Shown piece after piece: positions 4,311-54,860 of a stretch of 64,000 nucleotides of DNA. This stretch comes from Ulva prolifera (lineage: Eukaryota; Chlorophyta; Ulvophyceae; Ulvales; Ulvaceae), in the NCBI GenBank assembly GCA_023078555.1, contig CM041198.1, positions 10,153,836-10,217,835 on the forward strand. The letters are read 5' to 3'. Each line of letters opens with the position of its first letter. Position 1 is the first letter of the stretch. Made by a program: the position numbers and the translations under genes. Below the pieces are notes generated by a model. That model made no database searches. It saw only the letters and a program-made list of their open reading frames with translations, and was not told the origin of the DNA.

Positions 4311-5562
4311 ATGGATCTCAGCTTGGATGAACAAGCTTTGCTCGATAAATTTGCCACACTGAAGCGTGTTCAGGTACTACACAACAATCATGACGATCAC
4401 TTGCGCTGTCGTGAAAAGAGCCGCTTGGTGCAAGTAACATGTATACAATGCAGAGCAGCAGCGCAGAGGCTTCGCCTTGCGAACGTAAACGACCTCCAGA
4501 GTCCGATGCAGAAAGACGAGCAAAGCTTCACGAAGCAGCGAAGCAAGCTCTGCTTGCGTCTAGCCCCGCGCAAAATGACACTTCTGCCCAAGCTACAGCT
4601 GCAGGCGCACTGGAGCACGATGTGTCGGGCACTTCAGACGATGAGCCCCTGGCTCAGCCCAAACGGGAAGAGAAGAAAGGCAGGCCTGTCAAGAAAAAAT
4701 CCTCTCACACTACGATCCTGGACAAGCCATCCGCACGGCGTTCGCTTGAATCGCACATACTGCAGGAGACAGGGAAGCATGCTGCCAGGTGTGATGCACC
4801 AGCCTTGAGGCAGAAAGCTTGGTATGTATATATTAACAACGGACAGAGGCCGTGCATGCGACCGGTTCTGGGAATCCACTCGCAACCCACTCACTGATTC
4901 ATGGCACTAAGCCGGGCACGAGCGCGTACCACAGCCCTGCCAGGTATGTATCTATGCATGAAGACAAACCCATACTCATGGGGACATTGCCAACTTCGAG
5001 ATGTGAATGTGCTTGACGTTCGTACCATGGCATATACAAGCGCTGCTTTTGGCATTCTGGTAGGGTGAGCACCAAGCAATCATCACTGCTTTCAGATGCA
5101 CAACTCCCTGCAGCGTGGCTCAGTGCTTCCGAAAGGCCGTCCCTGCACCTGCGGCCGGGTCCGAGCTTAGTAGCTTACTTGTGCACGCTTGTGCCCATCA
5201 ACGTGACCATCGCCATTGCATCTGTCTGCTCGATGATTGCTGCCCACACTGACAGGTAGGCACAAGCTGCTGTGTTGCATCCCATTGATATGCTCGCCAT
5301 GCCACTGGACCCAAATGCAGCACCGTTGCATGAATTTAAGATTCACGGTGCGCACTGCAGATGTGCTGGAACATTGCCAAGGCAAAGCGCAGATGCTGAG
5401 GCAATGGGGGCTCAGATGATGTCAGGCAGTTCGCCGGCCACTGCAGAAGCTATGCACGATTGCTACAGCATCAATGCTGTAACAACGGATGCTGGTCAAG
5501 CGTCAATGCCAGACCTCGCAGCATCAATTGGGAAATGCGAACTTGTGTACGATGATATCTGA
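4311..5562 (+). CDS. Unrecognised multi-exon gene (hypothetical protein)
   Basis: I do not recognise the family. Exon 1 (4311-4373, 21 codons) starts MDLSLDEQALLDKFATLKR and ends CAG before GTACTA. Exon 2 (4454-4821) follows an ATGCAG acceptor in phase and encodes a charged, Ala/Glu/Lys-rich segment with a basic stretch (KREEKKGRPVKKK), suggesting a nuclear protein. It ends before GTATGT. Further exons probably lie up to 5562, where an open segment after an ATGCAG acceptor at about 5320 ends CELVYDDI-stop, but I could not link them in phase. The short N-terminal Leu/Glu/Lys pattern faintly recalls NELF-E, which is weak. A LINE-tail fragment (4826-4944) sits in the presumed intron after exon 2. 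Confidence 0.4.
4826..4944 (-). mobile_element. 3'-tail fragment of the second LINE-like family
   Basis: About 115 bp resembling 45646-45772 and 46219-46313: ACAAAGGACAGAGGCCG-like start, GGAATCCACTCGCAA, CATGGCACTAAGCCGGGCAC. At 45.7 kb the same sequence lies directly downstream, on the minus strand, of a LINE C-terminal coding fragment, so this is read as a stranded 3' end. Confidence 0.6.
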
Positions 5563-14802: not shown

Positions 14803-16900
14803 ATGGGTGTGGTACACTTGGGCCTGATTTGTGCTTTGATGTTCATCGGCCCCTTGATCACTGGCGTAATCCCTTTGGCGTTCAACGTTGCAAACGGCTG
14901 GATGAGCTGGGTATGCTCTCCCAGTTGATCATCGGATTGCTCTTTCGGTCTTGGCACCTGGCTTTCGTGCAGATGGAGATGCTAGGGGCTGGAGTAATGA
15001 TCGGCTCAGCCTTTGCTGTGGTACGTCATGTTATTACGGACGTATTACGACAACTCCAGTTGCAAGCTTCCGATATCTGCCCAATGTGACATGCTGCGCT
15101 TATTGCTCTTGCCAGCTGTGTTGCAGATGCCAGTCACTGCCTGGTACCTCACACCCCACGGTTTCAGGTCCTCCCAGAAGGCTTTCACGCCTTGTACGCA
15201 GCATCAACGAAAATATCCGCTGATGAACATGACCACGGTCATCCTGAGGAAGATCCAATGCTGAGGCTGCATGGACACGGTGATAGTTACCACCATGGCC
15301 ACTCCATACCACATTGGCTACCCGGACTGGCCCTGCTGGCAGGGTTCCTTGTGATGCTGATTTTTGAGTTCGAACACCATCACGCAGAGCACGAACAGCC
15401 GGGAAGAGACAGCTCCAGCAAGGTCCGTTCTCGCTTGCGCCCATTCCTGGTGTGCCAAGGCATGCTCGTTTGCCGTCATGCTAGCCCCTTGTAGGGTAGT
15501 CTGACTCGACATAAACGCATTGCAATGAAAGCTTTGTCATGTTGGTAGATGGGTGATGAAGGCTCTGCTTACCCCATTGCATGCGCGCTGTGCTTCTGTC
15601 AGACTTCAGAAAACACTGACGAGCCAATCATCCCCTATCACGTCAGATCATGTGCAATTTTTATGGCATGAAATGTCTGATGGCGCTGTGCGCTGGGACT
15701 GTGTTGCCTGGTCGTCTCACAATTCCTGTGCTTGCACGCAACAGTGTGCACACCGCAGCACGACTGCGGATGAGTGAAAGCATCCATGATTGTACGCACG
15801 ACAAGGCCTGAAGCAGAAATGCAAAGACTGAAACCCACACCATACCACATAGGTACCGGACAGGACACCACGCCATACCAGTACCAGAATATATGTGCTT
15901 TGAGCAGCCGCGGGGTCAGGTAAACCGACATCCCGCAGTCCTAGCGCCTGTGTACCATGACAATCACTGGCATATGGTGGGGGTCACCAAGCACCACAGC
16001 CCATCCCCTTGATGTGTGGGCACTCACCACTACGGCAACCAGTATTGGTCAAGCCAGGTGGGGCACAGGCTGTTGCAGTCTCCTGTCATGCAGGGCGTGG
16101 ACATAGCCCATGGCCGTACATGACAAATTGTGCAGTGCAAAGCACACACTTTGCCAAGTCTCACGCAAACAGAATCATGTCAAGGCACAGCAAGGGGTCC
16201 GGTCTTGGTTTCTCGGACTCCTGTCACAGCATAGCATGCTATCATGCTTGAGACCATGCAATCCATCCATTTTGGCGGTTTACAGCAGTGAAGAGGCGGT
16301 GTATGCAGGCACGAGGGTGCAGCCACAAGCATACTCATGGCTTCCCATCGTCAGCTTCCGGTGGCTCTGTCCTGGCTGCACTACTTGTGCATGCTGCGGC
16401 AGATGGCCTGGCTGTTGGAGTGGCCAGCATGTCAACTTCAGCACGGCTGGCCGTCTCTGTTGGCTTTGCAATGGTTTTACACAAGGGCCCCGTGGCACTT
16501 GGCCTTGGCGCATATCTGGTGGGCCAGAATACCCCCACTGTCGCAGTGTTACGGGTGCGCTGCTCTTCCACCGCATGAATGCATGCCTGCTATTTGCACT
16601 GGTGTCATCAGGTGGCTACCACTCTCCTTGTGGTTGCAGGACTTGTTCTTGTTCGCTTTGGCTTCACCGCTCGCCGCACTGTTCAGCTATGGCCTGCTGC
16701 GTCAAGTTTCGGGGGCTTCGTCTGGCACGTTTGTTGCTATGTGTGTTCTGTTCTCCGGCGGCACATTTGTATATGCAGCTTGTGTGCATATGCTGCCTGA
16801 CCTGAGTGCGAAGGCGCTTTCATGGAACAGCCTCGCTGTGCTCTGTCTTGGCGCACTCATTCCCTGTGGTATCAATCTGCTGGACTTGCATCATCACTGA
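14803..16900 (+). CDS. ZIP-family metal transporter, paralogue 2
   Basis: Predicted divalent-metal importer, closely related to paralogue 1. Exons 14803-14910, 14973-15020, 15168-15422, 16309-16554 and 16640-16900 join in phase 0 to give 305 aa. The exon 4 end at CGG before GTGCGC is preferred; an alternative donor 9 nt earlier also keeps frame. Exon 2 (48 nt) and exon 5 (261 nt) have the same length as in paralogue 1. Motifs: VLPEGF (53-58); a His-rich cytosolic loop (LHGHGDSYHHGHS in exon 3 and HKHTH at 143-147), typical of ZIP metal-sensing loops; HAAADG (165-170); and LHKGP in the next helix. The His-rich loop is much stronger than in paralogue 1, which may mean different metal affinity or regulation. 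Intron 3 is 886 bp. Confidence 0.88.
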
Positions 16901-18291: not shown

Positions 18292-20105
18292 TCACGATGG
18301 TGTGTGACCCACGTCCTTGAATGGGACAAATGCACGGGATAAGTCACCTTCACAGCGGCACTGTGCCGCATTCAACTCAGCCACTGGGATGCAAACTGGA
18401 GTTGTCGCAATCGGGCTGTCATCAGAATCGGTGATGTCTGGTGACAAGAGCGGTGCGTTATCTGCACCTGCAAGCTGTGCAAGCTCTAAGCCAAGCTCAG
18501 GTCCTGTGAGCCGCTCCCATGCCCTCCTGGACTCGTCTCTACCCATGTGTGCCACGACCACACCTGCCGCGACGAGCACAGAGCCCCCAATGCTGCTTGC
18601 CTGTACAGGGTCATTCAAAAACACTGTGCCGAGGACCATTGCATGGACCAATTGCAGCAGATTTATCACTGCAGCCTTTCGCAGGGAGAGCAGATTGAAG
18701 CCACGGGCTAGGAAGATTTGTCCCAACAAGCTTGCAGCGACCAAGCCTCCCAGAATGAGCCACTCGTGCAGGCTCGGGAAAACGACAGATGTGGGCAGTC
18801 CCAGGAGCATGAGAACGAGCGACACAATGCCTGCTGTCATGTGGAACCAGACTGACATCACAGCTTCTGGCTCACTAGAGGCCAGAGATCGGATGACAAA
18901 AATAACCGGTACAACCGCAAAAGCTGAGCCCAGGCCCGCGGCTGCCCCCACAGCTTGAAAAGCATGCCTATCTTCTGTACTACTAGATAGCAGTGAAGGT
19001 GCAAACGTCACGGCGACACCTCCTGCACATCAGAAACGATCAAAGGTATTCCTAGGCATGCAGAACAGCTCATGCATTGTTGCATGCAGCTGCCCATGCT
19101 GCATGACAAAGAATGCACATGTCCCACATCTGAGATTGGGCACGCGCTTCACTGCAGAGCACGAGCAATGTGAATCAGGAAGTATAACTCACCTGCACAT
19201 GACAAGAAAGCTGCAGCAATCGCCCATCGTGGGACATGATAGCCAGAGAGGGTAGACAGAATGGGTGTGGCAATGGCGCTGGTAAAGTGTATCGCGACTG
19301 CATCGCCAAGGTGCAGTGAATTGATACTGAAATAGTATAGGCTCAGCCCCCCAGCACCTGCTACGCCGCGAAGGAGGAGCTTGCCAAAGCAGCATGGTTT
19401 CCCAAACACCTGAAGGTCGGGATCCTTCCTGCGCATCTGCAGAACCACGACCACAGACAGTAGCAATGATATGAACGACCTGAAGGCAATAATCTGCATG
19501 TGAAGAAGCGAATTCAGCCTGAGCAGCCACCCAATGCAGCAGCAACAATGTGGTGCATACGCTGCGGGTGGCAATGCCAATGATGTGAGTGCAAGGCCGC
19601 CGCGCACTTGGGCGCTGACTGCATGCTGGAGCACCAAACCTGCCATTGCCGATCGAACAAGCACCGCGGCAGGTGGAGAGCCATATACAGCCGTCAGGTC
19701 AGCGCGCTGTACCTTCTCACTCCGCTGATTCCGAAAGAAATCGCAGTTGGCATTGTTTCATACAGAGGAATGCTGACACTGTCACCCACTTCCTGGCAGA
19801 GCGATGCACATTGATATGACAGGATTCAGCTCAAGCAAACTGATGCGATCGTGGGCACATCTGGCCACCAATCATCCCGCTCGCCTGTCTACATACAGCT
19901 GATCATATTTTGCAAGTCCTGACCAAGGTGCCATTGCCTGCATCGAGATCTCGCGCACCTGGAACACCCTGATCCTTTCATGCAGAAGCTTGACGCAAAA
20001 CGCGGATGTGGCCAAGCCCAATGATGCAAGGAACATGCAAAACGCGCCATTTGACCATACATGATCAGTGCATTGTGACACAAGAGAGTCACTTGCTGCA
20101 TGCAT
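18292..20105 (-). CDS. EamA/DMT-family transporter, paralogue A (5' end uncertain)
   Basis: Predicted multi-spanning drug/metabolite-type carrier; the substrate cannot be told. Minus-strand exons: about 20105-19959 (SNGAFCMFLASLGLATSAFC, helix, ends VFQ before GTGCGC), 19493-19193 (301 nt, starts IIAFRSFISLLLS) and 19022-18292. The 301-nt exon joins the last through a split Gly codon (SCAG-GVAV), as in EamA proteins where a Gly-rich helix ends the first half. The last exon holds the second set of helices (FHMTAGIVSLVLMLLG; GQIFLARGFNLLSLRKAAVIN; NDPVQASSIGGSVLVAAGVVV) and an acidic hydrophilic tail of roughly 80 residues. First exon(s) upstream of 20105 are unresolved; 20105 is only the in-frame Met. 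Resembles the SLC35G-like branch. Confidence 0.78.
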
Positions 20106-22442: not shown

Positions 22443-24099
22443 CTACGGTGTGGGGGCTGTGGGTGACAACAGACAATCTGTGTCAGCACTCGGCCTAGCA
22501 CTCAAAGTTGCGGAGTCTTGTGAAAGCTCTTCAGCGCCCCGCCCCTGTCCATCACCAGCCTGTGCCATAAGCACTCCTGCTGCCACAAATGCAGAGCCTG
22601 CAATTCCGGATATCTCCAACGGGTCATGCAAGAAGAGTGTGCTTAGGACGCGTGCATGCACCACCTCCAGCACATTGATCGCTGCTGCCTTGGATGGTGA
22701 CAGCAATGCAAAGCCTCTTGCAATGAACAATTGCCCCGCGCAGCTTGCCATGGCCAAGGCTAACAGAATTTGCCAATCACTGGAAGTGGGCCATGTGGCT
22801 GGACGAGGATATCCCATAAGCATAGGAACCACGGCCGTGATGGCTGCCACCATGTGAAACGCAACCGCCACCACAGCAGCAGGCTCCCTGCCCGCCAGTG
22901 CTCGTATGCAAAGGAATGCACATGTGGCCACAGCAGATGCGCCCAATCCCGTGAGTACACCCAAAGAGTGCAAAGCACTCGTGTTGCCAGCAGTCCCGCC
23001 CAGGAACGATGGCTTTGAGATAAGTGCGATTCCCCCTGCATGTGACAAATCTTGTGAGTGATGAGTAACATGGACTACATCATCAAACAAGGCAAGCCGC
23101 TTTGAACGTATGAAGATAAGGCATCACGGCAGCTGCCGATATATGCATGGGGGGGCTGCGAGAGATCCATTTGTGTCAGAGGCCATGTTGAGCAAGGCAT
23201 GTGTCCACGCATAGGTTGCCTTCACAGAGCCAGAGCGCCATGTCCGAACCTTGCAGGTTTCCATAATTCCTAGGCAAAACATTTGACATGCTACCAAAAT
23301 ATGCACCAGCTCAAGTGTCAAAGTCTATATCGCACCTGTGCACGATAGACATGCAGCTACTATGCTCCACTTGGGCGCCTCATAGCCGATTAGGACTGAG
23401 GTTAATGATGTCAAAATGACATTGCTGAAGAAGATGGTGACGGCATCACCGAGTGGCAGCAGCGTAATGCTGATGTAGAACAGTGTCATGGCCACAGCCC
23501 CTGCTGTTCCTCGTGCCAACAGCAGGCCCACATTTTCCAGGCGGCCAAACAGTTGTACTGACGGGTCTGACTGCCGCAAAAAGATCACCAAGATTGTGCT
23601 CAGAGCCAGAGAGACGGAAGACCTGAACGCAACAATCTGAACAACCTACTGTCAGCGCAATGCGGGGTGAAGCTGGAATGCTGAAGTGTGTGGCTGCTGA
23701 GCAAGGGCAGGAAGAAGGTGCGCTGAAAAAAAAAGTTCACTCCACTGTACATGCGGTGTGCATGAACTGTGAACGAGACTGGTTGTGGAGACCTTACACG
23801 CACTAACATAAGCCACAATACGCTGTATAGAGGGCTATCTGCGCGTCAGCAGAACCGCAACAACCGAAGATGCATTGCACGGTTGAGCTGTGGGGAAACT
23901 ACAGCATCTGTAGTTCTGAACATGCCTTCCCAACAGGTGCCATACGAAAACACCTGGACAAAGCCATTGCAGGAATAAGCAGACCTGAAAAATAGTGAGC
24001 CCATCGCCCAGTAGCTTCACGCAGAATGATGCTGCAGCCCACAGCAGTGACGTCATGAACATGCAGATTGCGCCATTCGACCAAAACGCATTGGCAAAG
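22443..24099 (-). CDS. EamA/DMT-family transporter, paralogue B
   Basis: Same predicted role as paralogue A. Minus-strand exons: 24099-23985 (starts after CTGCAG; FWSNGAICMFMTSL..., ends TIFQ before GTCTGC), 23636-23336 (301 nt; IVAFRSSVSLALST..., PLGDAVTIFFSN) and 23035-22443. The middle exon is exactly as long as in paralogue A and the last junction again splits a Gly codon (SCTG-GIAL). The last exon has the second helix set (GQLFIARGFALLSPSKAAAIN; HDPLEISGIAGSAFVAAGVL), but its hydrophilic tail is shorter than in A. The reading frame is also open upstream to 24350, so the true first exon is not settled. Head-to-tail with A, this is a local tandem duplication. Confidence 0.78.
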
Positions 24100-24958: not shown

Positions 24959-26130
24959 CCCCCCCATGTTATTTTCCCTGACGGTTGTACACCACGCCAC
25001 CCTCGCTGGCACGCAGTCTCGATAAAACTCCAAGCACGAGCATCAGGACAACAGCAGGAACACGACAAAGCCTTCTCTTTCCTTATAAAGCAACCTGAGT
25101 TGGCTCTGCAGCCAAAATGCGTGAAATACAATGGCGCCTTGGACTTCTATCGCGTTGCGGACCTGTCCAGTAGTCATGTCTCCCGCTAACAGGGGGTCTC
25201 CCGGGTACCCAGCCGACACTATATCATATACATGATGGGCCGGCCCGGCAGGCTCGAGCAGTTGCTCTGGGCAGGTCTCGTTCGTCCACCACAGACTATA
25301 CAGCTGCTGCCTCCAGAACTCTTCAAGCATCATGGTATGACATTGTGATTGCTTTTGATCCTGGGTATGGTGCTGGCAGCGGCATCGATGCAACCTGCAC
25401 GTGCCCGTGCACGTAGGCGTCAGGACTGTCGCTGCATAAAGTCGCTGCCGTGCATGAATTGATGCAACTCATGTAGCACAAAGACTTAATGGCTAGGTTG
25501 TGTATCAGTGTGGTGCACAGCATACAAATCGTATTTTGGGAGTACGGCTTCCTGTGAGCGCAGTTGACAGTACCTTCACATCACGGGCTGCATTGAAGCT
25601 TTCGACATGTTGGTACAGAACTTCACCCACATGTCATATCTATGGCGCGTTGCTTGCGCACAGAGGCTTTACACTGTACACGCATCGTATGCGTGATGCC
25701 ATCGCAGCGGGTCGTTCAACACAGACGTGCGTGAGGCTGCAGCCACGTTATATCTGAGCACGCAACAGAAAAACGTCATGGCGTGCATCAGGGAACGTGA
25801 TGTGATGTTGCAATGGTGCCAAATTTACCACTACCACGGCTGCCTTACACGCGATGTGTGCCTCGCAGCCCAATTCCTGCAGTAGCATCGCCGCGCATAG
25901 TCGCTTTCACTTTCTATTGCAGTGCATTTCATCGTCGTTTTTTTGCGAAACTATTGAACTGGTACAGGAAGAAAACGACAACACACCGTTTTCAAATGCC
26001 CTGCATCAAGGGCCGCAGAGGTATTACTGAAATAGCTAGCTGTCCGTTTCATTGCACATACACGAAGGCTCACAAAGTATCCACCCAAACAAGATTTGGA
26101 ATCTGATCACCACTAAATCATCACTGCAGA

Positions 26131-27081
26131 GTGAGAACATGCCTCAGCAACATGACTGCAATCATCAGAGGTGCATGTGCGACGCGCCTGTTATGTCTGA
26201 GTAGGATTCTACAACATAGCCAAAGGCACAGGAAAAGTACCTCTGCAGTGTCATGGAGCTGTGCTCTGTGGCTGTGCAAATGCCACGGAGCTGCGACTCG
26301 GTGTGCCAGGCGAGACATAGCCTATTATCATGCACTCAGCATGCAGCACCTGATGCTGAAACATGGTACTGGTGGTGCCTTTCATATGTGCATCAGCATA
26401 CTTGACAATCAGAGCTGTATGTGCTCAAGTTCCAGAGTGGTCAGCTCGGGTGTGCTGTGTGAATGCCGCAGATGTGCCGTTCTGCGCGCCAAGCGAGACA
26501 TAGCCTATTGTCATGCACTCAGCATGCAGCACCTGATGCTGAAACATGGTACTGGTGGTGCCTGTCATATGCGCATCAGCAACCTTGACAATCAGAGTTG
26601 TATGTTCTCAAGTTCCAGAGTGGTCAGCTCGGGTGTGCTGTGTGAATGCCGCAGATGTGCCGTTCTGCGCGCCAGGCGGGACATAGCCTATTATCATGCA
26701 CTCAGCATGCAGCACCTGATGCTGAGACTCGGTACTCTGGTCATATGCAGACATGCTTGGGCTTCAAAACATGAAACAAGAATACCTTCACAGGCGGTAC
26801 ATGATTCTGGGCTCGCTCAGGTAGCAGCACTTGGCACCAGTGCTTACTGGTCAAACGATAGGGTAGCAGCTTCGCCACTTATTCTACTGGAGAGCTGCGC
26901 AACAAGGTGCTCCTGCGTCTCTGGCAGGTGTTCTTGTGCAATGTGTGTCAGCTGCTGTGGGCAAGTGAATTTTGCAGAGTTCTTCCTAATGCATGTCAGT
27001 CATTCCAGTTGCAAGTCAACGAAATCTCCGCGACAATTAGGTGCATTCTACAAACGGGAAAAGGTCTGCAGCTCGCAGTGA
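26131..27081 (+). other. 316-codon open frame with 61-residue tandem repeats
   Basis: The frame stays open across 2.4 copies of a 183-bp repeat. The repeated protein block reads RDIAYYHALSMQHLMLK, then a linker, then SSSRVVSSGVLCECRRC (each unit rich in Cys, His and Ser). Because 183 is a multiple of 3, every unit is in the same frame. It begins at an ATG but shows no recognised domain, and coding status is unproven. It sits in the loop of the large inverted-repeat element, so it may be an element-encoded protein or simply a minisatellite that happens to be open. Confidence 0.35.
26306..26750 (+). repeat. 183-bp tandem repeat, about 2.4 copies
   Basis: Unit starts at CGAGACATAGCCTATT are 26311, 26494 and 26677 (exact 183-bp spacing). 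The first two units differ at only a few positions; the third breaks off after CACCTGATGCTGA. Confidence 0.9.
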
Positions 27082-27759
27082 CATCGCTGAAGCGTCCACA
27101 GCCTTGGTGGGTCCACCACAAGTGCAGCAATTGGTATCTTATATTACTTGAACGCTACAATTAACCTGTTGCAACTGCTCCAACGAAGGCAGTTCAGATG
27201 CTGCTGCGTTCGCAGTGTTTTGTACTGGGCTGGGATCGAATTATCCACTCATGTGAACAACGGCCACCATGGGCTACAGAATCGCGCTCAGGATGTGACA
27301 TACAAATTTTGGTGCATAATACCGGTCGAAAGCTTGCTCGTCCGGATAACGGAAGGTGGCAAAACGGGCGCACGGGAAGGTCGAGCTCCGAACATAAGAC
27401 ACACACTTCGCGCCGGGTGGCGGGAGAGCAGTTTATGATATGTCAACGATGCATTATCGGGAAGACAGTCAAGCGCGGCAGCGACTTTATGGAGCGACAG
27501 TCCTGACGCCCACGTGCACGGGCACTTGCAGGTTGCATCGATGCCGCTGCCAGCACCATACCTAGCATCCATAGCAATCACAATGTCATACCATGATGCT
27601 TGAAGAGTCCTGGAGGCAGCAGCTGTATAGTCTGTGGTGGACAACCAGACCTGCCCAGAGCAACTGCTCGAGCCTGCCGGGCCGGCCCATCATGTATATG
27701 ATGTATTGTCGGCTGGGTACCCGGGAGACCCCCTGTTAGCGGGAGACATAACATCCAGG

Positions 27760-27795
27760 TATGAGGCTCGAGACGCAAGTCTCGAACCTCATATC
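27760..27795. repeat. Hairpin in the right arm of the inverted-repeat element
   Basis: TATGAGGCTCGAGACG and CTCGAACCTCATA form a stem around a very short loop with one mismatch. It lies exactly where the right arm stops matching the left arm. Confidence 0.7.
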
Positions 27796-28635
27796 CTGAA
27801 GAATGAGTATCGTGTAATGTACTGCGCTGCCATCTTGATCAACGTAAAGGTGGTTGTCGTCGTTGATGAAGTGAACGACACACTCGCGCTTTTCGTGCTC
27901 GACACGGAACAACCGGTACCATCAAGGATACACAGATTCCGCAGCGCAAATAACCTAAGCCAATTATATCTTCGATTGATGTGCGCTGTGCGACGTTGTT
28001 GGCTGTGAAGACAGCACCGTGAATCTCAGTTGTGCCAGCCTGGACTTTGATGCCGGCAGCAATGGTGGCCTGCCCCGCTCGCGACAGATATGTGCTTCAG
28101 CAGATCATTCATCGTTCTCACTGTTCCAGACAGGCACAGCCATTGTATCGTTTCCAAACACAATTATCACCGAAGTGCAGTTGTGTTTTTGCGTCGTGGC
28201 ACGAAAGCCGACCTGGACGCGGACAGGCTTCCGATCGGAGGTAATGCCGAAAGCGCGGTCGATTACGAATTCGAAGTTGCTGTGTAAGAGTGCGACGGGA
28301 TGCCGAGCAGTACAGTCGAGAAGCAGTCGCCAAGTGCCACAGCGACACTAAGTGACAGCGCAAACTCGCCGTGAAAGCTATGCTTTACATAAAAATGACA
28401 AACTAAGAATGTCGCGTGTTTCTGCTGTTGTTCTGATGCTTTTGCTTGGAGTTTTATCGAGACTGCGTGCCAGCGAGGGTGGCGTGGTGTACAACCGTTA
28501 GGGAAAATAACATGGGGGCACGTGGCTGTGAACTCGAGATCATGAGGCGAAGCACCAGGCTGCGGAACTGCCACGAACACAACGCCGCAAGCACAGCCAG
28601 ACCCCACAAACTACGCAAGTGCCGCGCGGCATTCC

Positions 28636-28997: not shown

Positions 28998-31900
28998 GTG
29001 TCCGGAATGCATCAGTTCGAGCATCATCGGGACGGGCATGCCACAGACACAATGGCGCCCCGCCGGCCGCAGATCGGTGTGGGCATCCAGGGGGGAGCGG
29101 AGATCCCGGGCCAAGCCCTGAAACCAGACTTTGCGGATCCAAAAACCGTCACGGTGTCCGCGGATCTGCAGAATTCCTTCAATTTGATGTTTAGGGAGGC
29201 AATGGAGGAGCAGCTGACCGCATTACTCCTGGAGCTCCCACCATACTTGTGAACAGTGTGTGGGCGGAGCAGAGCGCTCCTCGCCCGCCGCCCAGATGGC
29301 ACCTGCGCGGAGCTGCGCAGCGAGACAGGCGTGCAACAGGGCGGCCGCTCCTGTTCGCGCTCGCCTACCTCCCCACCCTGAAAGAGGCGCAGCGGCTTGC
29401 CCCCAACACCCTTGTCACGTCCTGCCATGATGATGCGTATGTGCAGGGCGATGCGGACAGTGTGGTGGCTGCTGCGAACGCGATCCTCACGCTGCATGCA
29501 TGCAACCGCGCGAGAACCGTTGTGTGCTGCACCGATTCGGAGCAAGCGCGTCATGTGGCAGCGCAGCTGCAGGCTACGGTCGCATTCTGGTCTGCGGCAC
29601 GCCGCTGGGCACCGACGCCTTCATCGACGCCCACGTGAAGCAGCGCTGCCGGCACACAACTGCGCTCATCGACAGGCTGATCGGGCTGCCATTGCCGGCC
29701 CAGTCAAAGTGGGTGGTCCTGTACTACTGCCTCCAGCACAAAGAGGCGCACCTGCTCCGCAACACGCGCTGGGGTGCGCTCCGGGACCATCTGCCGACCG
29801 TCGAGGAAGCCACGCTGCGTGCCCTGTACAGCACGTGCAACATCATGGACGTGTCTGACCTGACCAGATCTCAGGCCCTCCTGCCTTATCGTCACGGCCG
29901 CATGGGGCTCCGGCACTACACCGCAGGTGTGGTGGATGCAGCACACCTGTCATCGGTGGCGTGCGGCGCAGTGTGCGCTTGCCGACGGTGTTGAGCGCGG
30001 CCGGCCGTTCCGCGGCAGCGCAGCCGTGGAGCTGCAGGGTGTGCTTGACTGGCTGCGCGTGACGTGGGGTCACGTGATCGCCGACCTCGGCGCCGGACCC
30101 GCTGACGCTGCAGCATTGGCTCTGGACACCACGGTGAAGCTGCGCCTGACGCAGCTGCAGCGGGGGCGATCTCGCGCGCTGTGGCCGACGGGCACAAAGC
30201 CGCCGTCTTCGCTGCGCTTTTCATGGCAGGCAGCGGCCGATCGGCCCGGTTCCCCGAAGACGGCCAGGCGGCGGCAGTCAGACTGCGCAGTTGCATGGGG
30301 GCCATGGCATCGGCTTGGCTCACTGCACTTCCGGGTCCAGTGACGGGCCTGTTCGACCTGGAGTTCGGCGTGTACGCACGGCTCCGGCTCGGGGAAGTCC
30401 TTCTGCCCCGTCTCAGCGGCGACGATGACGGATCCTCCAAGTGTCCCTGTGGCCGCAGCGATGCGTCTGGGACGCACTCACTGATCTGCAAGTCGCTATT
30501 GGGTACCGTTGTTGCCCGCCACAACCTCATCATGGAGACATGGCGCCGCATCATGGCACGCGGCGGGATCGCGTCAGCGGTTGAGCCTCACATGAGCAGG
30601 CTCCCCCGTGGCCTTGGCCCCAGCATTGGGCTCACCCGCAGCGCCCCGGACAGCACAGCAGTAGATTCCCCGTCACTCACCACCAAACCCTCACCCAACC
30701 AGGCCTTGGTCGCGCCCGCTCCCCCTCATGGCGCTCAGACCCCGTCCCCCAACATCCCGCAAGCTGCTCCAGCATACCCGACGGCGCGAGGACGACCGGC
30801 CCGACTCCTCTCCCGCCCTCGCCGCGGTCGCGCCCGCTCTCTCCCATGGCGCCCTAGCACCCTCTTCCCTCACGTACGCGGCTGTCCTCGCGTCCTCTGG
30901 TGACGCCACAGCGGTGTCCGGCGCCGGCGCCCCCGCTGGTGCGGCCGCCCCCCATCTTGCGCAGGCAGTGCCGCCAACGCCGCAGCGGTCGGTCCAGGCA
31001 CAGGCCATCCCGTCGACGGCTGTCCCCCGTCCTGAAGACCCGCACAGAGAGGTGACATCCTAACGTTCTTCCCGGGAGCGCCGGTGATCGGCGACGGGTG
31101 CGTTACCCATCCGCTGGCTGCCTCGAATGTCAGCGCCGCAGCGCTCCACGATGGTGCCTCGGCAGAGGCCGCCGACCGGCGCAAACGCAAAAATCACGGC
31201 TGGGCCGGCGCGGGCGCGTTCACGCTGTTACCGCTGTCGCATGAGACGTATGGACGGGTCGGCCTGGCCGCCCTCGTGTTCCTCAACAGGCTTGCTGCTG
31301 TGGCTGCAGGGTCTGGCGCGGCCTCTCGGCTGCGATTCCTCAAGAATGCAATGCGCAATCTCTCAAAGACACTCTGTCGTGCAGTGGCGCGCCAGGTCCG
31401 CGCCACAGCTCCGCTGATGGCACGTCACGCGGGCAAGGCAGTTTTGGCGGGACTCACAGTCCCGTCTGATGACCTCTCGCCGCTAACAGGCCATCCGGCC
31501 TGAGCGGTGAGCTGTTCCTCGGGGACCCTGCGAGCTTGACGACACCGACCGATGGCCTCTGACCCCAGGGCGGCCGGCTCCGCTTTGCGTGCGAGATGAC
31601 TTCGTCGGCATGTGCAGGGACCGCAGGGATGGCTTGGGCGCCGTATTGTCCCGGGTGTGTTGCAGCGCAGGCCGGCGGGGCTGCGAGGTGGTGGGCCGGG
31701 CTGGCAGGGTGCACTGTGGGTCTGAGGGTGGGGTTGGGGCCTGGGGCGGCCCCCGGCAGTCGAGCGGCCCGCATGGGCGGCCTTAGGCGGCAGTGTGTTG
31801 GTCGTGGCCCTGTCGTGAGGCGACAGGCATTGCGGTGTTGAATACGGTGTGGTTGTGTTTGGGGCGTTGTGTTTGTGTCGGTTTGTGTGTGGGGGTGTGA

Positions 31901-45064: not shown

Positions 45065-45167
<103 letters not shown>

Positions 45168-45645: not shown

Positions 45646-46313
45646 TAAGTAGTTACAAATGACAGAGGCCGGCATGGAGCCGTTTCTCGGAATCCACTCG
45701 CAAATTCACTCACTCATTCATGGCACTAAGCCGGGCACAAGCGCACTCCACACCACAGCCCTGTCGATGATTCCAGCCAAAGATTGAAGGCCCGCACGGA
45801 GCACATGGAGATATGCATTCCCTTTGCACAACGCCACACTCAACCGGCGCAAAGCATTTGTCACAAACACACCATGGTCCACCACACCGAGACGCAACCT
45901 CCGCCAGCCGATTCAAGTGATCCATATATAGCAGGCTGTCCCAACCGACCATGCGTCTCATGAGACAACGGCACAAAACTATACGCATCAGTGTCGTACG
46001 CACGATAAGCATTGCGTTTCTGCACGTCCCACACCACCGCAGCAGACCCGTCCTCCCGAGCCGCCCGGCTGCAATACGTACCAACAGACGGGTTTACAAG
46101 CGACACATCCCCTATGCATAAAGGGTCATCAGGCGGCACAAACATCATGTCCCCCACCTTCTCGTGGGCCATCGTCTTGAGCGCCTCCTCCAGGCCCTCC
46201 TCCCGCGCGGCAGCGGCGGTATGTAGTTACAAAGGACAGAGGCCGGGCAGCGAGCCGTTGCCAGGAATGCACACGCAAATCCACTCACGCAGTCATGGCA
46301 CTAGGCCGGGTAC
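45646..46313 (-). mobile_element. LINE-like fragment of the second family (copy E)
   Basis: Minus-strand coding remnants: VGDMMFVPPDDPLCIGDVSL, then DAYSFVPLSHETHGRLGQP, then NRLAEVASRCG. This is the same C-terminal domain as GDGCVTHP...LSHETYGRVG...FLNRLAAVA in copy D, so the two families share that domain. Downstream on the minus strand (45646-45772) is the 3' tail, and a second tail copy lies at 46219-46313, so two insertions are stacked. Both tails begin on the plus strand with GTTACAAA, i.e. the element ends in TTTGTAAC. Confidence 0.65.
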
Positions 46314-46507
46314 TGTTGTAATGGCCAAGTCTGTATGCTCGGAAGCACACATATTCCAGATATGCAGGCACCGATTGTGGATACATGTGTATGTATCTCA
46401 GGCTAGTGCCCTGCTAACATGAGTCAGCCAAAAGTATCCCAAAGAATACCTCAGAGTGCAAGCCTGTACCTCGTCAGAGCTGTGCACATGAGTTGCACGC
46501 ATACAGC

Positions 46508-46863
46508 TGTCAGAAAAGCTATCATTCGTGCAGGTCAGGACGCGCAGTCCTTGTTCAGGTCAGGTCAGTACAGCCAGCATCTCATACCTGCTGCGCACAG
46601 AGGTAGAACCGAGAGATGCTTAAAGGGAAGTGCTAGTACCGTGAAACAGTAAAGAGAATGGTTACAGATCTCAGTGTGCACATGCTTATATGCACACTGA
46701 ACACTCAACACTCAAGGTTACGGCGGGAAACCCTCGCACGATCTCTCTCACTACATCGAGACGATCCTCGCTGGCGGCTTACCCCTACACTGGATCCGCG
46801 GATCGTTCGTGCATGGGTGCACCTGTCACCACACTGCTGCCCGCAGGCTCATGCATTGTGACA
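46508..46863 (-). repeat. 3' LTR of the copia element
   Basis: 356 bp with 6-bp inverted ends (TGTCAG...GTGACA, pairing through TGTCA/TGACA). It contains several CAGGTCAGG repeats. Confidence 0.93.
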
Positions 46864-46880
46864 CTCCCCCATAAACCCTG

Positions 46881-49800
46881 CTACGTCTCCACTAGCTGGA
46901 GTTTATTACGAACTTCTAGCAAAGCAGGTCCGGGCAGCACTTTAGTAAACACATCTGCTAACTGATCGACAGTACCAACCCATGCTACCTTAAGTTCATC
47001 CATCTGGACATATTCCCGCACTCGCAAGTGCCGCACACGAATGTGCTTGGATCTGTCAGTGGACACAGCATTAACAGCCAAAATGTTGGCACTCTTATTG
47101 TCACCCCACAGAGTCGGCTTATGTGGGACGAGTTTCAAATCGAGAAGCAACTGCTTCACCCACATCAACTCGTTGGCTGTTGCACTCATCGCGATGAGCT
47201 CAGCCTCTGTTGTATCCCCAGCCACTATACTCTGCTTCTTCGAACGCCAGAGAACACAGTTCCCATGCACCCGAATAACCATACCAGACACGCTTTTCAG
47301 ATCAGCAGAGTTCGCAAAATCTGCATCTGAATAAGCCTCTAACAAACACCCGTGTCCCTCAGAGCCTATAAATTTTATTCCTAAGTTCTTTGTGGACTGC
47401 AGGTATCTCAGAACATGTTGCACGGCAGACCAATGTTCCTTTAGACTACTAGACATGTGCCGGGCCAGGGCATGTGCCACATAGCTCAGGTCAGGTCGTG
47501 TCACTCCTGCAATATACTGGATGCTTCCTACAGCACTCATAAACCTGGAATGCTCAGCAGCACTGGCTTTTTCCAGGTCAGGATGCTCTTTCGCACTCCT
47601 TAGTTGTTGCCGCGGCACTAAGGGAGTGGGAGACTTGCGACAGTCAGACATACTGTACTTTTCAAGCAAGTTTCGAATTTTGTTTCGTTGTGTCATGATG
47701 ATTGTTTTGGCCTTGCGATCACGCATGATCTCTGTGCCAAGTGCCCATGCAAGTTCACCTAAATCTCTGCCCTCAAATTTCGTGAGAATGATGTCGACAA
47801 GTTCTTGTAACCCCGCAGAGCTACTAAATATGAACAAGTCATCGACCCATAAGAAAATAAAGCAGCGACCAGATGTTCTGACATACAGTCCGGGATCACT
47901 TTGTGCGCACACAAATCCCATCTCAGCTAAGACCTTTATTAAAGCTTTATGCCACTCGCGAGCAGCTTGCTTCAGGCCATACAGGGTTTTATGCAATCTC
48001 CAGACACGTGCTGTCCCGTCAGTGAAGAACGGGGGCTGTTCAACGAACACTTCTTCTTCTAGCTCGCCATTCAGAAAAGCGCACTGAATGTCTATGTGCC
48101 TAATCTCTAAGTCTTCTTGAGCAGCAACTGACAGCAACACACGCAGTGTCGCATAACTACCGACAGGAGACCAAGTCTCAAAAAAGTCTACACCTTCTAC
48201 CTGAGAAAAACCACGAGCTACATATCGTGCCTTATACCGCTGAACCTCGCCAGCAGGCCCACGCTTGATCTTGAGCACCCATTTGCCCGAGATAGCCCGT
48301 TTGCCCGCAGGCAGATAGCACAACCCGAAGGTTCCGTGCTCACCTAGTGCATCTACCTCCTCCTGCATGGCACGCAGCCATGCATCCCTGTCAGCACTCG
48401 CGAGTGCTTCCTTCAAAGAAGGCATATCAGGGTCGGAGGCCTTCTGCTTCCTGGCGGCAGCTGCTCGGCGCGACCCACGACGCTGAACACTCTGCTGCTC
48501 ACCAGACTCCACATGCTGAGGCTTCAGGCCTGCACAGGACACTCCACAGTCAGCCGCGGCTGATGTGTCCTGATCACAAGCTGAAACATCAATAGCAGCT
48601 ACAACCGTCTCACTACTAGCAACGTCAGAGCCCGCAGGCTCATGCATTTGTACAGCTGCTACATCCGCAGCCAATGGAACAAGGCGTCTGCGTACAAGAG
48701 GATTGATTTTAATACGAGGTAAGGCAGCTGGAATGGCCCTCACCTCGTCAGGCAAATCAACCCCAACTGCGGCTGAGGGGTCCGGATCCTCTCCCCCTAA
48801 TTCGGACCCGGTCTCCACCTCATCTGGCTCATCCTCCCAGAAGGGCCTCGGCGCCTCAGCTCCTCGCAAGGGCTGAGCAACTGCCCCCGCGCCAGATGCT
48901 GAGGCCGCTGCCGAATTACTCCCAGAGCGGACCCGCTGAGCCTCCAGATTCTGATGAGCCGCAGCTCTTTCATCATCTGAGACGGTGTAGTCCATGCGCT
49001 GTTCGTCATCGTCGTCATAGATGCCACGACTGTCATCATCGGACGGATCCTCCATGTCGTCATCAGACGCACTGACAGACATTGGAATGGGGAACGCAAC
49101 TTCTACACCAGGGTCGTGCAACACAGCATTGCGCGTGACAACATACCGCGCGGTGCGAGAGGGCGTGGCGACAGGATGATGCACTTCGCCGTGAACACGA
49201 GGGGGGGCAGGGACGGCAGGATGAGCAGCAGCTCTGGACATTGCACGCGTGCGGTGCAAAGCTGCTCTGGCTATTTCCGGCGTTGCCCTAGCAGGGTCAC
49301 GTCGGATAATCTCCGCAGAGGAGCCAGCTCCAAATCGTGGAGAGTACGCAGTAGGATCAGGGTCAGGGTTGTCCTGCCGGAATGTCATTTCCATGACAGG
49401 GACCCTACCATGACCAGGGGGGGTGTGGAGCTGGTCACGCAGACGGCGCAACACTCCCCCATCATACGTGTGCTCTGCCGCGAAAGGAGGGACATCGGCG
49501 TCAGTCACACGCTCACCCTCATCGTCCCCCTCGAAGGCAACCGTATAGGAGTTCGCAAATTCCTTAGGTTCCCTCTTGTCCACAACGGCGGACGCATCGT
49601 ACTTGCGTACGTGCCGGATCATCTGATCCGCAGTGCACATCACCTGACGCACAACAAAAACCCTACCCCCAGGAACGTCCTGGGCGTACACACGCTGCAT
49701 GCTGGGGCCTAACCCAGCCCCGACCCAATATGCAGGCACACCCCGCGGGGACAACTTCCGCAGTTTGTCATCCCTAGGGTATGCATACACTTCAACCCCC

Positions 49801-52439
49801 CATGGACGCTGCTGCCGCAGCAGATCTTGGAACACCTCAACGGAGGTGTCTCTGAAAAAGGCCATATAAGGAATGATATCCTTATCACAAGACCGCACTA
49901 AAAACTCATCTAATTCTGTCGTCGCAAGCAACTTGTACTTGCGCTTTTCCTCATCCCTCAACTTATCGCGCTCGGCCTTTTTCATGCGCTTACCCTTCCC
50001 CAGGCTCTTCTCAGCTTCGTCAACATCCGCAGATGCGTTGACAGCATGCTGAGCTTTCAAGCCCTTGAGGATGCTCGCCAATTTGTCATGGTACAACGCC
50101 GACGACGGCGTGAGGTTGTGACCATGGACAACACTGGCGAGGCATTCAATCCACAGAAACAGAGGCAGGCCGCTCGCGAGCAGCACAGCACGGAGTGACT
50201 CGAAGGCCACTCCGATCCTCCTCTCGATCATGCCATTACAGCGATGAGCGGCTGTGGGGGTTAAGCGGTGAGTGATGCCACGACGCTGGAGGTAGAGCTT
50301 TAAGGCCGCGACCATAAACTCTCCCCCTTTGTCGGTGTGTAGGATGCGCACACCCGGTTCACCTGGCTTCACCACATTCACCCGAATGCGTTCGATAATA
50401 TAAGAGATCATGGCCGCAGCCTCACTCTTTTTGCGCAGACCTACCACGAAAGTATAACGGGTAAAGGCACACATCACAAACAAAACATATTTCACACCAC
50501 CAATTCCTACCGGAGAGACATGACCAGCTAAATCGGCATGCAGTTGCTCACCAGGCCACTTGGCCTGACCCATGAGCTCACGATCATTGGCAGAGAAGTT
50601 ACCCGCAGGCACCTTGCCAATTCTGCAGCCGTGACACCGATTCCCCAATGGCTCGGAATCGACATCCAAATTCAAATGACCATAAAATTCACTATTAGAT
50701 TGCATGCGTTTAAGGACCCAATTTGACTGGTGAAAAGACAAGTGTGCTAGAAAAGCAGGTTCCAGCAAGTATGCATCATGCGGGACCTCAGCTCCCCCAG
50801 CATTGGGTCGCTGCAGGTCAATGGCCGCGACCGCCACATGATGCCACTGCTGTTGATCCTCAACAACTGAGGTCGGACTGCTCTGGTTAGACCAGACTAC
50901 CCCCCTATTGACAGGCGCACCGACGAGAATGGGTTTGGTCTCTACTGCCATTTTGAACGCAAAGACAGGGTGACCATCCATATCTAGTTCCTGATATTTG
51001 GCATCGTCCTCTACGTCGGTAGCCATATCACCCAGACCAGGGACATACAACACATTCCTACGCGTGTCTAAGAACATCTGCTCGTGTCTAAGACCCATCG
51101 TGCTGAGCAGGTTGTACGGACATTCAGGAGCATAGTATACACCGGGAATTTCCACATCCAGTGGGTGCGTGTTCCCATGCTTGTCCACATAAGTACCCAG
51201 GTTCACCTGAATGGTTCCCCTACCCATGATAGAAAGCTGCCCTGGTCCCGCGAGATTGGCAACTTTCTGACACGGGCCGTACTCAGTGAACATTTCCCGA
51301 TTTCCTACTATATGCATGTCCGACCCACTATCAACAATGATGTTCCACGGCATGGACGCGTCCGGCTGTGGATACTTGGCAGGCATTTCAATAGTGCAAA
51401 CATCTCTGGCCGCAGCCTGTTTGCGTTGGGGGCAGTTCGCACGCAAATGTCCCTTCTTCTTGCAGAAGAAACAGGTCCTGGTCTCCTCGCGAGGAGCCTG
51501 GCCAGCTGCGAGAGCAGCGACCACAGGGCCGTCACCACGGTGCTGCTTGCGCCAGCCATGGTTTGGTTTGCCCGCGGGCGTACCAGACCTAGCCTGCAGC
51601 GACCGCTGTTGTTTGAGCAAATCAGCATGCTCAGTCAAACGGGCTATTATAACATGAGGGGAGGAGTGTTGAACTTCGCCGCGCACAGCGTTGAACTCCT
51701 CCCCCACCTCTAACAGTTTCAATCGAAGCCATCGCTGGCCCACATCGGCACCTAGTGCCTCCAGTTGAGTGTAAACACTCATCACCTCACCACAATATGT
51801 CGCGACATCTTTATTGTGTTGTGACAAAGAATTGAAACGACTCCACAGTCTATGGATCTCGGCTTCAGTGCTAGGTCTGTACTTGGCAGTCAAGTAAGAC
51901 CATGCTTCACACAAATGTGACATGCGATAGACAGTCGTCCTATCCGCGTCAGGCAAAGACATTAGGACCTGTGTCCTCGCCCTAGCGTGAACACGCTGTT
52001 CGTCCGCAGACGGTGCGTGCTGCAACAGATGATCTAACTCGAACTGACCTAACCACAAAAAGACTTTCTGTTCGTACGCAACGAAACTTTCAGTCTTGTA
52101 ATTCCAATCAGGCAATTTCCCTTTAGTCAAATCAGGTTCGCTACGCCCCCGAGATGCGCGCAGCGCCTCGGTTAACGTCTCGAGTGATATGAGTGACTCA
52201 GTGTGACCAGGATCGTCCACGACATGAGAGGAAAAAGGCACCTGCTGACTGCTCTGCCCAGTGCGGGAAGAGGGTCGTGGCCGGACAATTCGGCCGCCCC
52301 GGAGCAACATACCCGCAGGCTGTTCTCCGTCAGGGAGCTGCTGGTCAGCGTCCCTGTCGACGAGAGCCTGCTGGTCAGCATCGTCACGCCTCTCCTCGCG
52401 AGGAGAGTTGGCGTTGGAGTTGGCGTTCGAGAGAGACAT
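46881..52439 (-). CDS. Copia gag-pol polyprotein
   Basis: 1852 aa, single frame, minus strand. Order (approximate residues): gag with a CCHC zinc knuckle CFFCKKKGHLRANC (323-336); aspartic protease with IIVDSGSDMHIVG (~368); integrase with a zinc-binding GCRIGK region (~600), catalytic LHADLAGH (~631), ILHTDKGGEF (~700) and the Glu in GMIERRIGV (~738); reverse transcriptase with FLWVDDLFIF (~1531); RNase H with AYSDADFANS (~1705), TTEAELIAMS (~1741) and DNKSANILAV (~1783). The integrase-before-RT order defines the Ty1/copia superfamily. All catalytic positions appear intact. Acidic Ser/Asp-rich stretches (about 1120-1300) separate integrase and RT. The start is the first Met in the frame, about 300 bp inside the 5' LTR. 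Confidence 0.95.
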   Translation of the reverse strand: MSLSNANSNANSPREERRDDADQQALVDRDADQQLPDGEQPAGMLLRGGRIVRPRPSSRTGQSSQQVPFSSHVVDDPGHTESLISLETLTEALRASRGRSEPDLTKGKLPDWNYKTESFVAYEQKVFLWLGQFELDHLLQHAPSADEQRVHARARTQVLMSLPDADRTTVYRMSHLCEAWSYLTAKYRPSTEAEIHRLWSRFNSLSQHNKDVATYCGEVMSVYTQLEALGADVGQRWLRLKLLEVGEEFNAVRGEVQHSSPHVIIARLTEHADLLKQQRSLQARSGTPAGKPNHGWRKQHRGDGPVVAALAAGQAPREETRTCFFCKKKGHLRANCPQRKQAAARDVCTIEMPAKYPQPDASMPWNIIVDSGSDMHIVGNREMFTEYGPCQKVANLAGPGQLSIMGRGTIQVNLGTYVDKHGNTHPLDVEIPGVYYAPECPYNLLSTMGLRHEQMFLDTRRNVLYVPGLGDMATDVEDDAKYQELDMDGHPVFAFKMAVETKPILVGAPVNRGVVWSNQSSPTSVVEDQQQWHHVAVAAIDLQRPNAGGAEVPHDAYLLEPAFLAHLSFHQSNWVLKRMQSNSEFYGHLNLDVDSEPLGNRCHGCRIGKVPAGNFSANDRELMGQAKWPGEQLHADLAGHVSPVGIGGVKYVLFVMCAFTRYTFVVGLRKKSEAAAMISYIIERIRVNVVKPGEPGVRILHTDKGGEFMVAALKLYLQRRGITHRLTPTAAHRCNGMIERRIGVAFESLRAVLLASGLPLFLWIECLASVVHGHNLTPSSALYHDKLASILKGLKAQHAVNASADVDEAEKSLGKGKRMKKAERDKLRDEEKRKYKLLATTELDEFLVRSCDKDIIPYMAFFRDTSVEVFQDLLRQQRPWGVEVYAYPRDDKLRKLSPRGVPAYWVGAGLGPSMQRVYAQDVPGGRVFVVRQVMCTADQMIRHVRKYDASAVVDKREPKEFANSYTVAFEGDDEGERVTDADVPPFAAEHTYDGGVLRRLRDQLHTPPGHGRVPVMEMTFRQDNPDPDPTAYSPRFGAGSSAEIIRRDPARATPEIARAALHRTRAMSRAAAHPAVPAPPRVHGEVHHPVATPSRTARYVVTRNAVLHDPGVEVAFPIPMSVSASDDDMEDPSDDDSRGIYDDDDEQRMDYTVSDDERAAAHQNLEAQRVRSGSNSAAASASGAGAVAQPLRGAEAPRPFWEDEPDEVETGSELGGEDPDPSAAVGVDLPDEVRAIPAALPRIKINPLVRRRLVPLAADVAAVQMHEPAGSDVASSETVVAAIDVSACDQDTSAAADCGVSCAGLKPQHVESGEQQSVQRRGSRRAAAARKQKASDPDMPSLKEALASADRDAWLRAMQEEVDALGEHGTFGLCYLPAGKRAISGKWVLKIKRGPAGEVQRYKARYVARGFSQVEGVDFFETWSPVGSYATLRVLLSVAAQEDLEIRHIDIQCAFLNGELEEEVFVEQPPFFTDGTARVWRLHKTLYGLKQAAREWHKALIKVLAEMGFVCAQSDPGLYVRTSGRCFIFLWVDDLFIFSSSAGLQELVDIILTKFEGRDLGELAWALGTEIMRDRKAKTIIMTQRNKIRNLLEKYSMSDCRKSPTPLVPRQQLRSAKEHPDLEKASAAEHSRFMSAVGSIQYIAGVTRPDLSYVAHALARHMSSSLKEHWSAVQHVLRYLQSTKNLGIKFIGSEGHGCLLEAYSDADFANSADLKSVSGMVIRVHGNCVLWRSKKQSIVAGDTTEAELIAMSATANELMWVKQLLLDLKLVPHKPTLWGDNKSANILAVNAVSTDRSKHIRVRHLRVREYVQMDELKVAWVGTVDQLADVFTKVLPGPALLEVRNKLQLVET

Positions 52440-52745
52440 CCTGCATCAGGACAGATGGTTGTGTGTCGCGCGCAGCAACTAACCAGTGGGATTGCTCGCA
52501 AGCAAACAGGTTGAGAGAACAAGCGAACGCGTTCGCTTTTCTCAGCGCTTATCATTAAAACAAGCTTCTCGAATTGTGTCTAACAACAATATACTACGAG
52601 AGAGCTAAATGATGCCTGCGCTTTTGACCGCAGTCTGAGCGCCGGCAGAACAGTGGAATGCCCGCCGTGTCTGCGCGCAGACATTGGCCGACGGCTTTCC
52701 TGAACAAGACCATAAACAGACATTACGCTAACTTCATCGATACCA

Positions 52746-53101
52746 TGTCAGAAAAGCTATCATTCGTGCAGGTCAGGACGCGCAGTCCTTGTTCAGGTCA
52801 GGTCAGTACAGCCAGCATCTCATACCTGCTGCGCACAGAGGTAGAACCGAGAGATGCTTAAAGGGAAGTGCTAGTACCGTGAAACAGTAAAGAGAATGGT
52901 TACAGATCTCAGTGTGCACATGCTTATATGCACACTGAACACTCAACACTCAAGGTTACGGCGGGAAACCCTCGCACGATCTCTCTCACTACATCGAGAC
53001 GATCCTCGCTGGCGGCTTACCCCTACACTGGATCCGCGGATCGTTCGTGCATGGGTGCACCTGTCACCACACTGCTGCCCGCAGGCTCATGCATTGTGAC
53101 A
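52746..53101 (-). repeat. 5' LTR of the copia element
   Basis: 356 bp, same sequence as 46508-46863 by eye. It should carry the promoter for the element on the minus strand. Confidence 0.93.
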
Positions 53102-53677
53102 ACAGCTACATGTGCATAACTCCACATGCCCATAAAGTGCCACCAGCATTCCTCAGCATGTATAATCTTACATACCTATCCCATGTGTCATGCCACCTTA
53201 TATATATGCCACAGCCTTTTGGCAGTGCGAAGTGCCAGCGCAGTGCGTGCCCCATCATGCATGCGTCGCATGCATACCCCCGGACGGCGCTTGCGCACGC
53301 CAAGGGTGCAGCGTCAACGACCATGCCAGCCAGTCTACGTCTGTGTCTCCATGCAGCACCATCCTGCTGTATTGGATTGACAGAGGATGATACATACCAA
53401 ATCCCAATGCCCGCAGAAGATCGCCAGATCTCGCGGGATGCTGCACCCTGATCCATACAGAGATCAACGAGCAGCGCGATTCCACAGTTCCAAAGAGCTA
53501 TCAGTAGCGAGGACAGCACAAAGCAGGGATGGGCCTGGGCACATATATTCCAAGTGTTTTGCTGTGATCGACACAATTACCTTTGGTCGATTGGGGCGCG
53601 TCTGGTCCAGTCATTCCGTTGTGTGCTGCATTGTTACCCGTGTCGTTCTCTCCTGTCGTTTCTGTACGCTCGCTAGG
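53102..53677. other. Flank of copia insertion, nothing recognised
   Basis: Overlapping frames of 60-156 codons on both strands without domains. Begins with the ACAGC target duplication. Confidence 0.4.
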
Positions 53678-54599: not shown

Positions 54600-54860
54600 C
54601 AACATGTACGAGCATGTACCACAGCTCGGCCGGTGATACCAGCCAAAGCTTGAAGCCCCGCACGGAGCACAAGCTTAAGAGCATTCCCCTTGCACAACGC
54701 CACACTCACCGGCGCAAAGCATTCGTCACAAACAAAGCACGTACGGTTCACTTTAAGCTTACCACACCGAGACGCAACCTCCGCCAGCCGATTCAAGGTA
54801 GGCTGTCCCAAGCGACCATGCGTCTCATGCGATAACGGCACAAAACTGTCTGTACGCAAG
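54600..54860 (-). mobile_element. LINE-like fragment of the second family (copy F)
   Basis: Minus-strand remnants SFVPLSHETHGRLGQPTLNR and LAEVASRCG, then FAPVSVALCKGNALKLVLRA, colinear with copy E. It starts 30 nt after the hAT-like element and lacks the region upstream of the SHETHGR block. Dead fragment. Confidence 0.65.

Follow-up and report, generated by a model that had tools for sequence, protein, structure and literature searches.

Results and Discussion

A Copia-type element on the minus strand

The window analysed here, a 64,000-nucleotide stretch from what appears to be a green algal genome (C3:10153836-10217835 of the host assembly), contains at 46508-53101 on the minus strand a full-length Copia-type LTR retrotransposon. 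The locus raises the question of whether this copy is a lone intact survivor, very recently inserted and possibly still active, or one of many such copies. We conclude with high confidence that it is complete, relatively young and one of a large Copia (Ty1/copia) family.

The structural part of the original prediction was borne out. Base-by-base alignment of the predicted identical LTRs (46508-46863 and 52746-53101, 356 bp each) gave 356/356 matching positions, with no mismatch and no gap, and the 5-bp duplication ACAGC abuts both outer LTR edges exactly (on the plus strand, ACAGC followed by TGTCAG... on the left and ...TGTGACA followed by ACAGC on the right). The stop-to-stop frame 46881-52445 on the minus strand comprises 1854 aa, or 1852 aa from its first Met at codon 3, and is, as predicted, an uninterrupted Gag-PR-IN-RT-RH polyprotein filling most of the interior. 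The catalytic motifs, likewise predicted to be intact, were all recovered (14/14 motif patterns tested). The features of the element and its insertion site are as follows.

46314..46507, plus strand: left part of the interrupted target repeat, LTR-like, beginning TGTTGTAATGG (flank searches, self-comparison)
46503..46507: target-site duplication, copy 1, ACAGC (flank sequence; single copy in the uninterrupted paralogue L038)
46508..46863, minus strand: 3′ LTR, TGTCAC...CTGACA in element sense, 356 bp (LTR alignment)
46864..46875, minus strand: candidate polypurine tract TTTATGGGGGAG in element sense, adjoining the 3′ LTR (chosen by eye)
46881..52439, minus strand: Gag-Pol ORF, 1852 aa from the first Met, including the stop codon (ORF call)
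47013..47330, minus strand: RNase H motifs SDADFA, TEAELIA, WGDNKSA and HIRVRHLRVRE (motif scan)
47616..48332, minus strand: reverse transcriptase domain RVT_2 (Pfam), with WVDDL at 47835-47849 (motif scan)
48336..49478, minus strand: linker of ~380 aa between integrase and RT (limits set by eye)
50214-50237, minus strand: third integrase catalytic motif, NGMIERRI (motif scan)
50253..50555, minus strand: integrase core match, rve (Pfam)
50625-50744, minus strand: integrase HHCC motif (motif scan)
51087..51338, minus strand: Pol_BBD match (Pfam)
51321-51332, minus strand: protease DSGS (motif scan)
51432..51473, minus strand: Gag zinc knuckle CX2CX4HX4C (motif scan)
51633..51989, minus strand: Gag, Retrotran_gag_2, E 6.7e-6 (Pfam, just under the curated cut-off)
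52734..52745, minus strand: primer binding site, 12 nt, TGGTATCGATGA (complementary to the initiator tRNA-Met 3′ end plus CCA)
52746..53101, minus strand: 5′ LTR, 356 bp (LTR alignment)
53102..53106: target-site duplication, copy 2, ACAGC (flank sequence)
53107..53620, plus strand: right part of the interrupted target repeat, right edge approximate (flank searches, self-comparison)

Pfam searches placed RVT_2 far above its curated cut-off (188.9 bits against 31.6, E 1.5e-55), Pol_BBD above it and rve narrowly so (33.1 against 32.6 bits). Two models stayed below their cut-offs, that of copia Gag at 26.1 against 27 and a zinc finger at 21.6 against 26.2. Integrase precedes reverse transcriptase in the polyprotein (rve at residues 631-731, RVT_2 at 1372-1610). 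A motif scan found the zinc knuckle, DSGS, HHCC, D-D-E, RT VDD and RNase H motifs. With E up to 0.01 allowed, the sole PDB sequence found was that of ‘Integrase’ in 7z0h and three further entries (E 4.3e-11), which we take to be the integrase of Ty1. The purine-rich stretch preceding the 3′ LTR ends in GGGGGAG, and is presumed to act as the polypurine tract by analogy with LTR elements in general.

The element shares with the Copia superfamily the Gag-PR-IN-RT-RH order in a single frame, with integrase before an RVT_2 reverse transcriptase carrying the catalytic aspartates (WVDDL), as well as the CCHC knuckle, protease DSG, HHCC, D-D-E and RNase H motifs, the Gag model scoring just under its cut-off. 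It also shares a pair of TG...CA LTRs with a 5-bp target duplication, an initiator tRNA-Met primer site beside the 5′ LTR and, as judged by eye, a polypurine tract before the 3′ LTR. It differs in the 640 residues lying between rve and RVT_2, which include a weakly constrained linker; this spacing and the 1852-aa polyprotein are presumably longer than is usual for Copia. Osser resembles the element in having a green algal host. PMC3587641 names Osser of Volvox carteri among Copia elements. A search of open-licence papers for literature on green algal copia elements gave little or nothing.

Insertion into an LTR-like repeat

The flanks were considered as unique DNA, and this was rejected on finding flank matches at many places in the genome. 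The best 40 matches per flank were scored, giving 39 left and 39 right matches besides the window itself. Among the matches listed, left and right matches lay adjacent at 21 places outside the window, overlapping by exactly 5 bp at 20/21 and by 3 bp at the other, and a 5-bp overlap is what is expected of uninterrupted repeat copies with one ACAGC. Moreover, when the two flanks were joined with one ACAGC, they aligned with the uninterrupted copy L038 over 710 bp (94%), and the junction itself was free of gaps. On the evidence of these alignments, the element is inserted inside an LTR-like repeat and has duplicated 5 bp of its target. Some copies of the target repeat lie ~9.04 kb apart in the same orientation (e.g. 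C3:5093401 and C3:5102446) and this, together with its TG start, suggests that the repeat is probably an LTR of another element. Self-comparison found no further copy of it in the window, so the interrupted target here looks like a solo LTR.

The family in the genome and the age of the window copy

Family searches covered the host assembly (88.9 Mb, 44 contigs). In this assembly the chlorophyll a/b-binding family (PF00504) is represented by 38 exon-level matches, while among 14 control genomes a cyanobacterium alone gave a signal. One translated match hit 77 distinct PDB sequences at E up to 1e-80; of the 60 listed, almost all bear the names of chlorophyll a-b binding, Lhcb or siphonaxanthin proteins, and the top two are long chains called LHCI. 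We judge from this that the host is a green alga. A rough, unconfirmed first look for the family gave 935 candidates with the LTR as query and 340, 339 and 341 with three internal segments. The best 40 candidates of each query were scored and 20 other copies were read whole, out of 86 candidate places of which some are double listings of one element; drawn in this way, the sample is biased towards close relatives. Exact 5-bp duplications were present in 16 of the 20. The LTR pairs of 19 fully read copies (L058 left out) comprised 7 with no mismatch and 12 with 1 to 22, and of 7 further pairs 6 had none and one had a single mismatch, giving identical LTRs in 13/26 other measured copies of this biased sample. 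The LTRs of different copies mostly differ from those of the window copy by 2-14%. An open frame of 1851-1864 aa was found in 9/20 fully read copies and was lacking in 11/20. Two propositions were thereby rejected: that the window copy is the only intact one, given the nine other open frames, and that its LTR identity is unusual, given the absence of mismatches in 7/19 and 6/7 other pairs.

The prediction also said that every other retroelement in the window is broken and that this one stands out as possibly active. Within the window this agrees in part with a self-comparison, where the LTRs of the element form the only near-identical direct pair of at least 100 bp; other direct pairs of at least 100 bp are 67-91% alike, including a local tandem repeat. 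A tblastn search of the window with the element's protein (E up to 1) found no match beyond the element itself. At the level of the genome, however, the claim does not hold, as the counts of identical LTR pairs and open frames attest. The window copy is therefore no lone survivor: its large family includes further copies that look just as fresh. In itself it is an ordinary, well-preserved, relatively young Copia element.

Identical LTRs, an exact duplication, an open frame and uninterrupted paralogous sites together support a structurally complete and relatively recent insertion. The predicted ‘very recent’ origin stands only in this relative sense, since 0/356 differences is a weak bound, limiting LTR divergence to below about 0.84% (95% level). 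At ~1e-9 per site and generation, a Chlamydomonas rate assumed here, 0.84% still corresponds to some 4 million generations. Present activity of the window copy is plausible.

Another family copy lies at C3:10145262, ~8.6 kb to the left of the window, with 95% identity in the RT segment. Two copies at C6:5923623 and C6:5929851 start 6228 bp apart, about the element length minus one LTR, and these match coordinates suggest a tandem array with a common LTR. L054 and L055 are full copies with 1 and 0 LTR mismatches respectively, yet their 5-bp flanks are unlike on the two sides, which suggests exchange between copies after insertion.

Selection on the coding region

Between the window copy and the nine other open copies dN/dS ranged from 0.086 to 0.136. 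Across all pairs of the ten open copies it was 0.15 for Gag, 0.08 for PR-IN, 0.28 for the linker and 0.07 for RT-RH, the linker between integrase and RT being the least constrained region, and these values are to be read knowing that picking open copies favours low dN/dS. Judged by these ratios, the excess of synonymous change shows that the lineages of open family members multiplied under selection for their proteins. All 14 motif patterns are complete in the window copy and in 7/9 other open copies, with L046 lacking two and L055 one. In synonymous divergence RT-RH exceeds the other regions of the frame by a factor of 2.5 to 3.5, which is also consistent with mixing of copies.

A primer site in two versions

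A first initiator-tRNA pattern, in which a different anticodon-loop sequence was assumed, gave no match in the assembly. A second pattern gave four matches, three of them tRNA-Met(CAT) by ARAGORN and one (L062) not, against one match for its reversed control; with CGATA prescribed as the end bases, this pattern would overlook initiator genes that end differently. The three tRNA-Met genes are taken for initiators from the T-loop. Those on C4 and C8 are identical over 72 nt, and that on C10 differs from them at two positions, which form both sides of one acceptor-stem pair. The 12 nt of the primer site pair with the ends of the three genes plus CCA, although positions 9-12 alone constitute an independent match because the bases opposite positions 4-8 were already prescribed by the pattern.

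Base 9 of the primer site is A in 11/29 copies, fitting the C4 and C8 genes, and G in 18/29, fitting the C10 gene. The 29-copy set was required to carry TGGTATCG[A/G]TGA, so that constancy of the other 11 bases is by construction. In an unfiltered 21-row alignment no position of the site other than base 9 (7 A, 14 G) shows a common variant, with one further difference in L058 and an extra base at the site end in L050 and L053. On a tree built from the next 1.4 kb, base 9 requires 8 changes, where shuffled labels average 8.96 and 650/2000 shuffles need 8 or fewer; base 9 is therefore without tree signal. Eleven other two-state sites of similar frequency require 4 to 7 changes on the same tree. 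This test is only suggestive, as the tree is itself affected by recombination. Base 9 differs from that of the nearest copy in 13/29 copies, with ~14 expected from random pairing, and it splits close relatives: the window copy has A and L057 has G, and L046 (A) and L048 (G) are separated by only 3 differences in 1429 bp.

These patterns are most simply read as the primer site being copied anew from the tRNA that serves as primer. Recombination by itself might scatter base 9, yet it would not explain why the variation mirrors the tRNA difference. On balance, we lean towards each insertion of the family bearing the stamp of the initiator-tRNA version that primed it, with the site rewritten in every cycle. 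If true, primer choice would be naturally recorded in the copies of this copia family. PMC7472051 discusses primer-site variation relative to tRNA primers for mouse ERVs. Two-version priming in an algal copia element was not found in a narrow search of open-licence papers.

A mosaic copy

Copies compared for mosaic structure were the closest relatives of the window copy. The closest full copy among them, L057 (C3:1797216), differs from it at 54 aligned positions, of which 16 are in the LTRs. Between the LTRs the 37 substitutions are unevenly spread: 9 fall in tract 1403-1540 (138 bp), 12 in tract 4334-4757 (424 bp), and the other 5320 bp account for 16. Permutation scans reached the observed cluster in 0/10000 cases with a 150-bp window and in 10/10000 with a 450-bp window, tracts and scan widths having been chosen after the differences were seen. 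Tract 1403-1540 of the window copy matches L054 and L060 without a single difference (0/138). No donor was found for tract 4334-4757, the best copy being L057 itself with 12/424 differences; in a search with this region the best scored match was 98% over 501 bp. When 17 copies (L045, L052, L053 and L058 left out) and 426 sites were put to a PHI-type test, the statistic was 0.217, whereas 200 shuffles averaged 0.283 (sd 0.0045) and went no lower than 0.271. Among the relatives compared, these alignments show the window copy to be a mosaic and family members to have exchanged sequence.

Onsen of Arabidopsis, which we take to be a copia family, offers a parallel. PMC5668417 describes pairwise recombination between Onsen family members during bursts, so that Onsen, like the family studied here, is an LTR family with recombinant new copies. 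The Onsen recombinants were shown there in new insertions and extrachromosomal DNA, whereas ours are deduced from integrated copies alone.

We propose that RNAs of different family members would be packaged together, that reverse transcription, primed by either of the two initiator-tRNA versions, would switch templates, and that insertion would be made by the element's own or a sister copy's enzymes. Template switching has reportedly been seen in Triticeae.

Age, mobilisation and route of exchange

Gene conversion could produce both identical LTRs and clustered differences. The window copy might thus be older than it looks, its LTRs having been equalised by gene conversion or by assembly collapse. 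Sequence exchange does occur in the family and an assembly can collapse near-identical LTRs. However, LTR pairs are identical in half of the other copies measured, yet LTRs of different copies mostly differ from those of the window copy, and homogeneity within copies but not between them is as predicted by recent insertion. The open frame and exact duplication also speak against great age, and we consider an older copy very improbable. A recent copy could alternatively have been mobilised by the enzymes of a sister, its frame remaining open for lack of time to decay. L041, L042 and L048 combine interrupted frames with identical LTRs, which implies either that copies without a full frame spread or that they decayed quickly after insertion. 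Against this, the window copy retains every motif pattern tested and its dN/dS against the open copies is at most 0.136. Mobilisation by a sister seems unlikely, though considerably less so than great age.

The clustered differences might also have arisen by DNA-level gene conversion between integrated copies instead of by template switching. Sequence alone does not tell these two routes apart, and the PHI-type test detects exchange, not its route. However, at each of the 7 LTR positions that separate the window copy from L057 the difference is present in both LTRs, a pattern simply explained by one reverse-transcription event with a recombinant LTR. The recombination during bursts described for Onsen (PMC5668417) also favours the reverse-transcription route, and conversion between integrated copies is in our view the doubtful alternative to template switching.

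With its many copies that look young and recombine, a copia family of this size in a compact algal genome would lend itself to the study of bursts and exchange, and typing the two versions of the primer site in genomic copies could reveal which primer was chosen. The signs of recombination and of two-version priming across the family are more useful findings than the single copy.

Other features of the window

An Rfam search of the window at gathering scores gave no match, and no tRNA genes were found in it. Inverted repeats at 24961-25457 and 27469-28518 (285 bp at 94.7% and 104 bp at 95.2%) enclose a 183-bp tandem repeat at 26305-26736; this unit of ~3.5 kb (24961-28518) may be a DNA transposon or a fold-back element. 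The stretches 408-2054 and 29070-31507 resemble each other over long, diverged segments (67% and 72%); by eye their frames are reminiscent of the C-terminal region of non-LTR retroelements, but no Pfam match was obtained for the three frames examined. The stretch 11123-11655 has a ZIP match in its frame and its DNA is 68% like 16364-16900, while 18292-19029 and 22443-23123 both have EamA matches in their frames; the two pairs are likely duplicated transporter genes. A 244-bp direct repeat (79%) at 45752-45980 and 54618-54847 brackets the element and its target repeat. A long (GT)n run of 49.5 copies (97%) occupies 45067-45165.
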